Shown piece by piece: positions 2,240 to 35,071 of a DNA stretch of 35,418 nucleotides. Made by a program: the position numbers and the translations under genes. Within the stretch, counting starts at the first letter, position 1. Each line of letters begins with the position of its first letter. The notes beneath the pieces are model-generated. The model was not told the DNA's origin and made no database searches. It was given only the letters and a program-made list of their open reading frames with translations. Location of the stretch: IMG/VR virus record IMGVR_UViG_3300042309_001637, positions 1 to 35,418 of that record. One strand, given 5' to 3'. This DNA comes from a virus.

Positions 2240-2587
2240 TGCTTCTACAAGGTAGGCCTCGTCGGCAACGGTTAGATATATCGAATCTTCCTTTATTGCG
2301 CCGCATAGATTAGACAAAAAATCCACAAAAGCCTTGAATTTGTCGTCTCCGTGAAAGGCTACTTCGTATCTTTCGTGCTTGTCTCTTACTATTTCGCCGC
2401 CGGTCACCCAATAGCCTCTTATTTCGCTGCATTCGTGGGTGTAGGCGCAGTATTCGGACACAAAGAATTCGTGAATGTTGTTTCTGACTTCTTCTGTTAA
2501 TTTTTCGACGGGAACATAGAACACAGCCACCTTGCCGACATGTTTGATGTTCTTATGCCCCACCCAGCCCTCAAAAGATTTTGTCAT
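2219..2587 (-). CDS. Hypothetical protein coupled to the serine protease (122 aa)
   Basis: Starts MTKSFEGWVGHKN at 2587; its ATG overlaps the protease stop as ATGA, which implies translational coupling. The frame is open further upstream, but that part lies wholly inside the protease gene and is spurious. The protein has VGKVAVFYVPVEKL and a later LTVADEAYLVE segment, no signal peptide and two cysteines near residues 46 and 52. Coupling suggests it works with the protease or limits it, for example as a cytoplasmic inhibitor; this is inference from position only. Confidence 0.6.
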   Translation of the reverse strand: MTKSFEGWVGHKNIKHVGKVAVFYVPVEKLTEEVRNNIHEFFVSEYCAYTHECSEIRGYWVTGGEIVRDKHERYEVAFHGDDKFKAFVDFLSNLCGAIKEDSIYLTVADEAYLVEASFQGKK

Positions 2588-3342
2588 TTTACTGGTTCTT
2601 TTGTTTTTTCTCGAACCCAACTTGCATAAAGGCTGATTCGCGTATGCGCGCATTCGTCTCCATAATCTGAATTGGACTTTCCGTCCGTTGCCATGACGAA
2701 CGAGTTTATCCCGGCCAGTTTGTTGTCTATAAATAGCCCTCCACCACTGTCTCCGCTCGCTATCATGTATTCTAACTGGGTTCTCCTTCCCCCTACATTG
2801 GAACATACAATAACATTTCTTTCTATTCTCTCTACTACGTTCGACCCTGCTCTTCTGATTCCGTCTGACTTTGTGTATCCCGTAGAAAATGTTCCTGTCA
2901 TTCCGTACCCGGCCATACTCACCACCTTGGAGACTTCATCATCTTTTTCATATAGTTCCGGATAGAAATCCAGACCAAGATCGCTTTCGCAATATCCCAA
3001 AGCTATGTCGTGATATCCTATTTCGTCTTCTTTGTAGTCCTTGTGTATTATTACTTTTTTAATCTCGTAATCATTTCCGTCAACTACGACTTTGACGCCG
3101 TCCGCACCGTTAACGACATGGGCGGCAGTAAGTATCCAATGAGGACTTATCGCTACTGCGCTGGCGTGGAAAAGATGTTCGTTCTCTTTTTTTTCACAAT
3201 TGCAAATGCCTTTTAAACTGAGAACATATTTAAAATTTGATCCATATTCCTTGTATTTAGAATCAGGCACAGAAGGGTCTATCGTGCCCCCGAGCGAAAA
3301 TGAACTCATCACCAACAAGATTAACATCCATGAGTATCGCAT
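2584..3342 (-). CDS. Secreted trypsin-like (S1) serine protease, 252 aa
   Basis: The first 19 residues form a signal peptide: MRYSWM then a hydrophobic core LILLVMSSFSLGG. The mature part has the chymotrypsin-fold triad in the usual order: His75 in LTAAHVV, Asp112 in HDIAL, and Ser199 in ASGDSGGG. Cysteine spacing (residues 47, 49, 118, 180, 231) would allow disulphides, consistent with action outside the cytoplasm. S1 proteases hydrolyse peptide bonds; the target here is unknown and might be a host envelope protein or a phage virion precursor. Serine proteases of this class with a signal peptide are not part of the T4 core set, so this is an accessory gene. The downstream gene is coupled by ATGA. 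No strong ribosome site precedes the ATG. Confidence 0.88.
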   Translation of the reverse strand: MRYSWMLILLVMSSFSLGGTIDPSVPDSKYKEYGSNFKYVLSLKGICNCEKKENEHLFHASAVAISPHWILTAAHVVNGADGVKVVVDGNDYEIKKVIIHKDYKEDEIGYHDIALGYCESDLGLDFYPELYEKDDEVSKVVSMAGYGMTGTFSTGYTKSDGIRRAGSNVVERIERNVIVCSNVGGRRTQLEYMIASGDSGGGLFIDNKLAGINSFVMATDGKSNSDYGDECAHTRISLYASWVREKTKEPVK

Positions 3343-16585: not shown

Positions 16586-18667
16586 ATGAGCAAAGAATAC
16601 TATTGGCTAAACTCCCACAGCCGCCTCTTCCTTGAGAGAGGCTATTTGGAGCCGGAAATAACCCCTGAGCAGAGAGTTAGACAGATAGCCGAAAACGCAG
16701 AGAGGATCCTCAGCATAAAAGGTTTTGCCGACAAGTTTGAGGATTATATGAGCCGGGGCTTCTACAGCCTCGCTACGCCCGTGTGGACCAACTTCGGCAA
16801 CAAGCGTGGACTACCCGTGAGTTGCTTTGGCTCTTATGTTAAAGACAACATGGAAGCCATCCTCACCAAGGCCGCCGAGGTCGGAATGATGAGCAAGATG
16901 GGGGGAGGCACAAGTGGCTACTTCGGAGACCTCAGACCCCGAGGCACCAAGATCAGCGTGGGTGGAGAGAGTTCCGGGGCTGTCCACTTCATGGAGATCT
17001 TTGACAAGGTGTCGGAGGTTATAAGCCAAGGAAGCGCCCGACGAGGATCGTTCGCGGCCTACATGCCGATCGAGCACGACGACATTGACGAGTTCTTGCA
17101 GATCAGGAGCGAAGGCCACAGTATCCAAAACATGAGCATCGGCGTGACTGTGACCGATAAGTTCATGAAAGAACTTATCGAGGGAGACAAGGACAAGAGG
17201 AAGATATGGGCCAAGGTGATTCAGAAGAGGTTTGAAACCGGCTATCCATACATTATGTTCGTGGACACGGTCAACAAGAATGCGCCGAAGGTTTACAAAG
17301 ACAAGAAACTGAAGATCAAGGCTAGCAACTTGTGTGTATCTCCCGACACCATGCTTCTCACCAGAGAAGGAGAATTGAGGATCGGGGATCACGAAGGTCG
17401 GCTCGTGAAAGTTTGGAACGGCAAGCAATGGTCAGAGACTACGATTGTCAAGACAGGAGAAAATCAAAAACTCCTCAGAATCGCCATCATAGGTAGGGAA
17501 TTCGACGACTACGACACAGAGACGTTTTTCAGGACAAACTTGAAGGTCACCGAATACCACAAGTTCTACATGAAGGATGGATCGGAAATCCGAGCAGGAG
17601 AGTTGAAGCCAGGCGACATGCTCTTGCCCTTCTCCAATGCCAGAGGCAGAGTATTCAGGCCCGAAGTCCTTGAAATCAACGAGGAGTCCGAATTAAGCGA
17701 CACCTACTGCGTGAACGAACCTCTTGAACACAAGGCAGTATTCAACGGAATACTCACGGGAAATTGCTCAGAAATCAATCTCTATTCGGACGAAGAAAAT
17801 TCGTTCGTCTGCGTTCTATCAAGCCTCAATCTCCTTCACTGGGACGAGATCAAGGAAACAGACGCCGTGGAGACCATGGTTAGATTTCTTGACAGCGTTT
17901 GTGAAGAGTTCATCGTCAAGACAGAGGGCTCCAAGTATCTCGAACCAGCCAGGAATTTTGCAGCCAAACAGAGAGCCCTTGGTATGGGTGCTCTTGGATG
18001 GCACTCATACCTCCAGAGCAAGATGATTGCCTTTGAGAGCATGCAAGCAAAGTTGCTCAACGCAGACATATGGAAGACGATAAGAGAGAGGAGCGACAAG
18101 GCCACAGAAGATATGGCCGCTGAATACGGAGAACCTGAGCTCCTCAAGGGCTGCGGCCGGCGTAATGTAACCACTCTCGCCGTCGCCCCGACCACTAGCA
18201 GTAGTTTCATCCTCGGTCAAGTCAGTCCGAGCATAGAACCCCTCAACAGCAACTACTTCGTCAAGAGTTTGGCCAAGGGCAAGTTCGCCTACAAGAACCC
18301 CTATCTTAAGGAAATATTGAAGAAGTACGAGAAGAACAACGAAGATATTTGGAAGAGCATTCTGGTCAAAGGAGGATCAGTCCAACACCTGGATTTCCTT
18401 ACAAAAGAGGAAAAGGATGTGTTCAAAACTTTCGGCGAAATCAGCCAGAAAGAGATTGTTATTCAAGCCTCACAAAGACAAAAATACATAGACCAGTCGC
18501 AGTCTTTGAACCTCATGATTCCACCTTCCGCTTCTCCCAAGGATGTCAACAGCCTGCTCATAGAAGGCTGGAGGATGGGCATCAAGACCTTTTACTATCA
18601 AAGAAGCGCCAATCCGGCGCAAGAATTGGCCAGATCAATTCTCTCGTGTTCCTCTTGCGAGGCTTGA
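16586..18667 (+). CDS. nrdA: Ribonucleotide reductase class I alpha subunit NrdA with an intein (693 aa precursor)
   Basis: Reduces ribonucleoside diphosphates to deoxy forms. Catalytic residues are present: C80 in LPVSCF (E. coli C225), N248 before and C394/E396 after the intein (E. coli N437-x-C439-x-E441), C409 in FVCVLSSLNL (C462), the tyrosine pair in TFYYQRS, and the C-terminal redox pair CSSC (residues 688-691). A 144-residue mini-intein separates N-L from the radical cysteine. The spliced protein is about 549 aa, much shorter than E. coli NrdA (761), because the N-terminal ATP-cone is missing, so the activity switch by dATP is probably absent. The nrdB-nrdA order is reversed compared with the common nrdA-nrdB. 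Confidence 0.93.
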   Translation: MSKEYYWLNSHSRLFLERGYLEPEITPEQRVRQIAENAERILSIKGFADKFEDYMSRGFYSLATPVWTNFGNKRGLPVSCFGSYVKDNMEAILTKAAEVGMMSKMGGGTSGYFGDLRPRGTKISVGGESSGAVHFMEIFDKVSEVISQGSARRGSFAAYMPIEHDDIDEFLQIRSEGHSIQNMSIGVTVTDKFMKELIEGDKDKRKIWAKVIQKRFETGYPYIMFVDTVNKNAPKVYKDKKLKIKASNLCVSPDTMLLTREGELRIGDHEGRLVKVWNGKQWSETTIVKTGENQKLLRIAIIGREFDDYDTETFFRTNLKVTEYHKFYMKDGSEIRAGELKPGDMLLPFSNARGRVFRPEVLEINEESELSDTYCVNEPLEHKAVFNGILTGNCSEINLYSDEENSFVCVLSSLNLLHWDEIKETDAVETMVRFLDSVCEEFIVKTEGSKYLEPARNFAAKQRALGMGALGWHSYLQSKMIAFESMQAKLLNADIWKTIRERSDKATEDMAAEYGEPELLKGCGRRNVTTLAVAPTTSSSFILGQVSPSIEPLNSNYFVKSLAKGKFAYKNPYLKEILKKYEKNNEDIWKSILVKGGSVQHLDFLTKEEKDVFKTFGEISQKEIVIQASQRQKYIDQSQSLNLMIPPSASPKDVNSLLIEGWRMGIKTFYYQRSANPAQELARSILSCSSCEA
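17333..17764 (+). other. Mini-intein in NrdA (144 aa), no homing endonuclease
   Basis: Block A is CVSPDTMLLTREGE (first residue Cys1). Block B is around LKVTEYHKFY, with T-x-x-H. Block F/G is ELSDTYCVNEPLEHKAVFNG followed by ILTGN and then Cys+1. The inserted piece lies exactly before the radical cysteine, a known RNR intein site. No LAGLIDADG or HNH motif is present between blocks B and F, so the endonuclease has been lost or was never there. The penultimate residue is Gly, not the usual His, leaving an N-terminal-to-C-terminal splice word of GN|C; splicing may rely on another residue such as the block F His. Confidence 0.9.
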
Positions 18668-21412: not shown

Positions 21413-21919
21413 GTGAATTTTAATGGCAAAAAATTAGTCTACGCACTGAGGCATTCCCCGGATAAATTTGGACTCGCCCCGGACCAATACGGATGGGTAT
21501 ATTTGCAATCTTTTCTTGATGCTATGAACATAACAAAAGAACAGCTTGATTTGATTGTCGCCAATATGGATAAGAAAAGATTGGAGATTCAAGGTGATAA
21601 AATAAGAGCCGCATACGGCCATTCTTTTGCCAATAAAGTCCAACAAACAGAGGCCCGCCCGCCGGATATTTTATATCACGGCACCCCTTCCTTTAGCGCC
21701 TTCGTGATCAAGAGAGAGGGCCTAAAACCCATGTCCAGACAGTATGTTCATTTGTCCACAAGTCCGAAAACGGCCAAGACGGTCGGACAAAGAAGGCACT
21801 CTGAACCAATCATCCTAACTATAGATTCAAAAAAAGCATTTGAAGACGGAATTAAATTCTATCACGGAAATGAGGATATTTGGTTAGCAGATCACATACC
21901 TCCCCAATATATTGCGTGA
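21413..21919 (+). CDS. kptA: KptA/Tpt1-family RNA 2'-phosphotransferase (168 aa)
   Basis: Tpt1/KptA removes an internal RNA 2'-phosphate by transferring it to NAD, releasing ADP-ribose 1'',2''-cyclic phosphate. The family pattern is complete: KKLVYALRHSPDKFGLAPDQ, GWV, KKRLEIQGDKIRAAYGHS, ILYHGTPSF, GLKPMSRQYVHLS, VGQRR and the tail IWLADHIPPQYI. The catalytic Arg-His-Arg-Arg set corresponds to R13-H14, the Arg in KIRA, and the Arg in GQRR. The start is GTG with GGAGAA six bases upstream. In bacteria its role is unclear; here it may repair RNA or undo an ADP-ribosyl or 2'-phosphate mark. Stands alone between a divergent gene and a nuclease gene. Confidence 0.9.
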   Translation: MNFNGKKLVYALRHSPDKFGLAPDQYGWVYLQSFLDAMNITKEQLDLIVANMDKKRLEIQGDKIRAAYGHSFANKVQQTEARPPDILYHGTPSFSAFVIKREGLKPMSRQYVHLSTSPKTAKTVGQRRHSEPIILTIDSKKAFEDGIKFYHGNEDIWLADHIPPQYIA

Positions 21920-34705: not shown

Positions 34706-34776
34706 GCGGGTGTAGTGTAGCAGTAACACGGAATACTTCCAATTTTCAATCACCGGAGCGTAACCGGTCACCCGCT
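34706..34776 (+). tRNA. tRNA-Gly (UCC), atypical elbow
   Basis: Acceptor GCGGGTG/CACCCGC is perfect. D-stem GTGT/ACAC; anticodon loop CTTCCAA with anticodon TCC at 34738-34740; stem pairs GAATA with TTTTC (one T-T mismatch). T-stem ACCGG/CCGGT. The D-loop is AGCAGTA, lacking G18-G19, and the T-loop is AGCGTAA, not TTCRANN, so the D-loop/T-loop contact of normal tRNAs cannot form. No encoded CCA. It could be a non-standard or degenerate tRNA. Confidence 0.75.
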
Positions 34777-34801
34777 CTTGATTTTGATCAAGGTATAACG
34801 A

Positions 34802-35071
34802 TCCGAGATAGTTAAACGGTATAACAGCAGACTTCAAAATCGGAGTGCCTAAAGGGAAACTTTTAGAGTAGAACCTCTCAAATTCGGTGAAGCCTTTAAA
34901 ATGGTAATACCGAGCCAAGCCCAAGCAATTGGGAAGGTGTAGAGACTTGATGGGAGGCACCTAAATCAAAAGATATGGTGAAGGTAAAGTCCAGACCACA
35001 AACAGTAATGGTAGTGAAAACTATAGTGGCAAGTGGATCTGCTTTTCTAGGTTCGAATCCTAGTCTCGGAA
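34802..35071 (+). tRNA. tRNA-Gln (UUG) split by a group I intron
   Basis: 5' exon 34802-34834 and 3' exon 35034-35071 join to a 71-nt cloverleaf: acceptor TCCGAGA/TCTCGGA, D-arm GTTAAACGGTATAAC, anticodon stem GCAGA/TCTGC, loop CTT|TGGA, T-arm CTAGG-TTCGAAT-CCTAG, discriminator A. The split lies between anticodon bases 34 and 35, so the anticodon (TTG) is only made on splicing. Without splicing the loop would not form. No encoded CCA. Confidence 0.88.
34835..35033 (+). ncRNA. Group I intron ribozyme (199 nt), no ORF
   Basis: Conserved core elements are in order: P/Q region GGTAATACCGAGCCAAGCCC (34903-34922), R region with AGAGACTTGATGGG (34941-34954) and S region AAAGTCC (34986-34992); GACTT (34944-34948) pairs with AAGTC (34987-34991) as P7. 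The 5' exon end ACTT pairs with GAGT inside the intron (P1), with U.G at the splice site, and the intron ends in G at 35033 as required. The core resembles the small tRNA-Leu introns of cyanobacteria and plastids. It encodes no endonuclease. Confidence 0.9.

Follow-up and report, generated by a model that had tools for sequence, protein, structure and literature searches.

A phage tRNA-Gln gene split within its anticodon

The window analysed here, a 35,418-base virus record taken at its full length, carries T4-type structural genes (tail sheath, tail tube, sheath stabiliser and a T4-type baseplate protein), in keeping with the phage context proposed in an earlier, sequence-only reading. Other genes encode an SbcC/SbcD-like nuclease pair, ribonucleotide reductase subunits and a DNA helicase. 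Near the right end, a tRNA-Gly(UCC) gene lies 24 bases before a tRNA-Gln(UUG) gene that spans 34802-35071 on the plus strand and is interrupted between anticodon bases U34 and U35:

34706..34777 (+): tRNA-Gly(UCC), found by ARAGORN; RF00005, 49.4 bits
34802..34834 (+): tRNA-Gln(UUG) 5' exon, 33 nt, tRNA positions 1-34, last base U34; supported by ARAGORN on the joined exons and by intron-free family members
34835..35033 (+): group I intron without an open reading frame, 199 nt, terminal G; RF00028, 68.2 bits; covariation in 30 relatives
35034..35071 (+): tRNA-Gln(UUG) 3' exon, 38 nt, tRNA positions 35-73, starting UGG; supported by ARAGORN and the block-removal control

When joined, the exons give a 71-nt tRNA-Gln(ttg) with a full cloverleaf, all four stems being paired (ARAGORN), as expected if a 199-nt insert separates anticodon bases 34 and 35; the gene does not encode CCA. 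The Rfam group I model RF00028 matches positions 34825-35014 significantly (68.2 bits, E 1.9e-15; gathering score 50), which, together with covariation in 30 relatives, upholds the group I identity first suggested from the letters of the window. The intron ends in ...GCAAG and thus has the terminal G. As a control for chance, a 199-nt block was deleted at 70,216 start positions over both strands and ARAGORN was run on every product: a tRNA spanning the join arose solely at the 34802-35071 locus and nowhere else in the window. At the locus itself, the predicted cut alone reads Gln, whereas adjacent cuts read Arg, His or SeC. The window therefore carries a real tRNA-Gln(UUG) gene split by a group I intron. 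Plain ARAGORN overlooks this gene and its intron mode mislabels it as tRNA-SeC(tca) with a 199-nt insert; since a plain tRNA finder misses or misnames split genes, phage tRNA sets are probably undercounted.

Several further features are recorded as observations in their own right. The T loop of the window tRNA-Gly(UCC) (34706-34777) is non-canonical, AGCGTAA against TTCRANY, and a relative (L014:4990-5062) has the odd T loop ATCGTGG, with the A54/U58 swap present in both copies; these loops recall the non-proteinogenic tRNA-Gly of staphylococci. A gene for a KptA/Tpt1 RNA 2'-phosphotransferase is found at 21413-21919 (+) (PF01885, E 1e-36); such enzymes work after enzymatic tRNA splicing or repair and would not be needed in group I splicing. 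The large subunit of ribonucleotide reductase (16586-18667, +) has an apparent small intein after the Cys of NLC (a weak Pfam intein match), which would give this genome a second self-splicing element. The gene at 2584-3342 (-) encodes a trypsin-like protease (PF00089, E 5e-17) that seems to carry a signal peptide; such a protease is uncommon in phage.

Fold of the intron and its covariation

The window intron has every core helix from P3 to P9, including the conserved guanosine-binding helix P7, and its core presumably resembles those of known tRNA introns, whose tRNA-Leu(UAA) type is placed in subgroup IC3. At the 5' splice site, ACUU/C faces G-GAGU, so that P1 includes the U.G pair. The P1 with its U.G splice pair, the core words, the P7 pairing and the terminal G that had been picked out from the sequence were all found:

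34831..34846 (+): P1, exon ACUU (34831-34834) with guide GAGU (34843-34846), U34.G at the 5' splice site
34840..34842 (+): candidate P10, guide UCG (34840-34842), just before GAGU, which can pair with 3' exon UGG
34874..34957 (+): P3, 34874-34879 with 34952-34957; compensatory change in 6/6 pairs
34884..34938 (+): P4, 34884-34889 with 34908-34913; P5, 34893-34894 with 34903-34904; P6, 34914-34916 with 34936-34938; P6a, 34920-34923 with 34930-34933
34942..34992 (+): P7, guanosine-binding helix and pseudoknot, 34942-34948 with 34987-34992, one base bulged
34958..34980 (+): P8, 34958-34961 with 34977-34980
34995..35030 (+): P9.0/P9 region, 34995-34999 with 35026-35030 and 35011-35015 with 35020-35024, GAAA loop

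The fold was examined by aligning 30 introns of the family; their hosts, in virus contigs and phages, are genes for tRNA-Gln, -Leu, -Ile, -Arg and -Ser. Of the 49 nested pairs returned by RNAalifold, 32 show compensatory change. With the P7 pseudoknot then put in by hand, 96.9% of cells are paired and both sides change in 36 of 55 pairs. The covariation score is 0.516, compared with 0.169 for shuffles, of which none of 500 reaches the observed value, and at most 0.112 for slid partners. In P7 itself 100% of cells are paired and four of the six pairs show compensatory change: the outer pair goes from G-C to A-U in five rows, and the inner pair is A-U in fifteen and U-A in fifteen.

A guide sequence that follows the host tRNA

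The three bases before the splice-pair G differ with the host gene. They are mostly UUU in Leu introns, pairing with exon AAA; CUG, CCG or UCG in the ACUU-type Gln introns, pairing with exon UGG; the two Ile introns have guide bases that match exon AUA. When 22 distinct combinations are taken together, the intron's own 3' exon pairs at 52 of the 66 P10 positions against a shuffled mean of 31.1, and none of 20,000 shuffles reaches 52, a count that is not a strict probability because the shuffles ignore kinship among introns. The junctions had been chosen without reference to P10. In the window, P10 consists of only three pairs, two of them G.U, which weighs against the splicing model. The P1 side changes in the same manner: where the Gln 5' exon ends in GATTT instead of GACTT (L200, L201, L202), GAGT in the guide is replaced by GAAT or GGAT. 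The guide is thus retuned to each host tRNA.

Distribution in phages, virus contigs and bacteria

In Rfam searches at E up to 0.01, only two of the first relatives (L006 and L009) were matched. RF00028 gives low scores to much of the family, and the relatives' membership was therefore decided by alignment and covariation. By DNA search, the core recurs in the tRNA-Leu(UAA) genes of the huge phage LR756501 (735 kb; 79% identity to the window intron over the matched part) and of Agrobacterium phage Atu_ph07, and in a tRNA-Leu of LR756511, where a gene lies inside the intron; in further phages it is found within or next to protein genes.

Virus contigs scanned with a pattern for the intron 3' end and a T arm after it gave at least 118 stretches, whose junctions were checked by ARAGORN and P1; part of these matches yielded no tRNA. 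Calls with introns >300 nt were kept out of the statistics, as there were spurious junctions among them (SeC, Thr, some Asn, Stop). Together with the window and phage records, the scans contributed to a tree set of 69 distinct introns <300 nt, which among the matches listed comprises 40 Leu(UAA), 11 Gln(UUG), 7 CAU, 5 Arg(UCU), 3 Asn(GUU), 2 Ile(UAU) and 1 Ser(UGA). The family thus occupies phage tRNA anticodon loops, mostly those of tRNA-Leu(UAA), and group I introns in phage tRNAs are common and have been overlooked.

A Gln-specific scan of virus sequences returned 12 loci, of which 11 are true split tRNA-Gln(UUG) genes; their introns measure 195-225 nt and their contigs 9 to 459 kb. The remaining match (L196) contains no tRNA and was rejected. 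One of the 11, L010, has a tRNA and intron identical to the window's, so that window and L010 count as one locus and, with the ten others, make 11 distinct loci. L077 is probably another split tRNA-Gln, with a longer intron. Insertion between anticodon bases 34 and 35 is common to the 11 Gln loci and most Leu loci. The view that a tRNA-Gln host in a phage is unusual stands in part: the host is real, but with 11 distinct virus loci it is no one-off, and among the matches listed from the sampled virus contigs the tRNA most often split is tRNA-Leu(UAA). In species genomes of bacteria and archaea (84,980 scanned), the Gln junction pattern had three matches and zero tRNAs; the pattern is fitted to the 3' end of the window-intron family, and bacterial tRNA-Gln introns ending otherwise would escape it. 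The three matches, in Lutispora, Paenibacillus and a SAR116 MAG, were rejected as not being tRNAs.

A related intron splits a tRNA-Leu(UAA) gene on many resistance plasmids, which makes the intron family common to phages and bacteria. An intron-like sequence with about 72% identity to the window intron stands unannotated in 1,266 plasmid records (Enterobacteriaceae, Acinetobacter and others), L213 among its carriers. On plasmid pCTX-M3 (NC_004464; L212:2470-2770) it is a 213-nt intron that splits tRNA-Leu(UAA) near aac(3)-IId. It scores 36.8 bits in Rfam, below the gathering score, and pipelines would therefore overlook it.

Relatedness and mobility

A tree was built from 71 introns, the 69 tRNA introns and two capsid-region introns, with P1 and the guide excluded. 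It requires at least 15 changes of isotype against a shuffled mean of 29.7. Among the matches listed, the nearest to the window intron is 87% identical and sits at the same position of a phage tRNA-Leu(UAA). Gln introns are scattered over several places in the tree, whose deep branches are weak and which is compatible with more than one direction and number of moves; a single Gln clade is not rejected (AU p 0.25). In contig L161 a Leu and an Ile intron, 82% identical, group as sisters (99/81), the pattern that a jump inside one genome would leave. The capsid-region introns form a separate branch (100/100). The introns seem to move between phage tRNA genes.

Intron-free alleles bear on the same point. 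In virus contigs L204, L205, L207 and L210, an uninterrupted tRNA-Gln agrees at 71/71 bases with the joined exons of a split gene (L194), giving the family the intron-plus and intron-minus alleles of a mobile intron; the adjoining tRNA-Leu(UAA) is likewise intron-free in L204, L205 and L207. Comparison of L194 with these copies pins down the junction for the family and shows that the presence of the intron varies. For the window's own tRNA-Gln, no exactly matching intron-free copy was found, and relatives whose neighbouring protein is 81% identical to the window's have the tRNA-Gly and lack the tRNA-Gln. The window intron has no homing endonuclease of its own, its 199 nt leaving no room for a gene. 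HNH proteins are encoded within related tRNA introns of about 690-700 nt, so the family has the means for enzyme-driven homing, which the window copy lacks. The window intron may have moved by homing with an HNH enzyme acting in trans, or by reverse splicing and recombination.

Discussion

Fold, size and position place the window intron among the group I introns found in the anticodon loops of bacterial tRNAs. In tRNA-Leu(UAA), too, the intron splits the anticodon, with U34 on one side and A35 on the other. Cyanobacteria and plastids, in tRNA-Leu(UAA), and bacteria, in tRNA-Ile(CAU), tRNA-Arg and tRNA-fMet, likewise have small group I introns of the anticodon loop with like core words, whereas the host here is a tRNA-Gln and the carrier a phage. 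Reviews list tRNA-Leu, fMet, Ile and Arg as the bacterial tRNA hosts, in cyanobacteria and proteobacteria, and name only cyanobacteria and alpha- and beta-proteobacteria as bacterial carriers (PMC4033280); a 2014 review placed all phage group I introns known to date in protein genes, despite the many phage tRNA genes (PMC3984707). The ribozyme described here is of a known kind, but for its host tRNA and its carrier the 2014 review had no example. A literature search that covered few subscription journals turned up neither a phage tRNA nor any tRNA-Gln with a group I intron, which is no proof that such reports do not exist. The tRNA-Leu introns of LR756501, Atu_ph07 (both Leu(UAA)) and LR756511 share the phage carrier, the 34/35 position and the core; they differ in having a Leu rather than a Gln host and, in LR756511, in an HNH gene inside the intron. 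The main texts of the LR756501 and Atu_ph07 papers make no mention of an intron. Phage protein-gene introns, in the Pelagibacter phage capsid region and the crAss-like phage DNA polymerase, have a homologous core with high identity in P4-P7, but their host is a protein gene and not a tRNA.

Taken as a whole, the evidence is very probably best explained by a pre-tRNA whose intron excises itself in the two group I steps to give tRNA-Gln. The split gene would be transcribed as a pre-tRNA, probably on one transcript with the adjoining tRNA-Gly(UCC). A compact group I ribozyme would use its guide to pair with 5' exon ACUU (P1) and 3' exon UGG (P10). A guanosine at the P7 site would attack after U34, and the freed U34 would attack after the intron's terminal G, creating the U34-U35 bond and the anticodon UUG. 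We infer that the product is charged with glutamine, and the phage would thereby gain a tRNA-Gln for CAA and CAG codons. The window's larger genes use these about equally (CAA 131, CAG 126 of 7,660 codons), so that the tRNA could be useful with no tie to a skewed codon. It is reasonable to suppose that its function depends wholly on self-splicing, which a protein could assist.

A stronger version of that last point, in which the intron is a true group I intron but needs a host or phage protein to splice, the RNA alone making no tRNA, is unlikely. An intron of 199 nt has little peripheral structure to steady its core, and some other group I introns do receive help from proteins (PMC3984707). 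Covariation, on the other hand, keeps all core helices. Self-splicing is also known among small group I introns of tRNA genes, Azoarcus tRNA-Ile being one example.

Two further readings would deny the gene its product or its identity. Phage tRNAs are often dispensable, and the intron might have decayed to leave a pseudogene that produces no tRNA; we regard this as quite improbable, given that the window copy pairs in every core helix, P1 and P10 fit, the tRNA stems are complete, and tRNA and intron recur unchanged in contig L010. That the gene is instead a selenocysteine or opal-suppressor tRNA (anticodon UCA) with its intron after position 37, as the output of ARAGORN's intron mode would have it, is scarcely credible: the U.G splice pair and terminal G arise solely with the CUU/...G/UGG cut, and intron-free phage tRNA-Gln reads CTTTGGA at the junction, with which 11/11 family members concur.

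Returning to a self-splicing intron in a functional tRNA-Gln gene, we envision that it probably entered tRNA-Gln via the 5' target ACUU common to tRNA-Leu, its guide then being retuned to the new 3' exon. A broader reading, which we hold tentatively and as somewhat less than an even chance, is that phages form their own reservoir of tRNA group I introns that switch isotype (Leu, Gln, Ile, Arg, Ser, Asn, CAU) by means of a shared ACUU-type 5' target and a retuned guide. One might speculate further that an anticodon kept split until splicing shields the pre-tRNA from anticodon-cutting host defences. If the reservoir exists, isotype would change by retuning of the guide to every new 3' exon. Matched split and intact tRNA-Gln alleles, together with a guide that tracks its host, make the change of host gene by a self-splicing intron directly testable.
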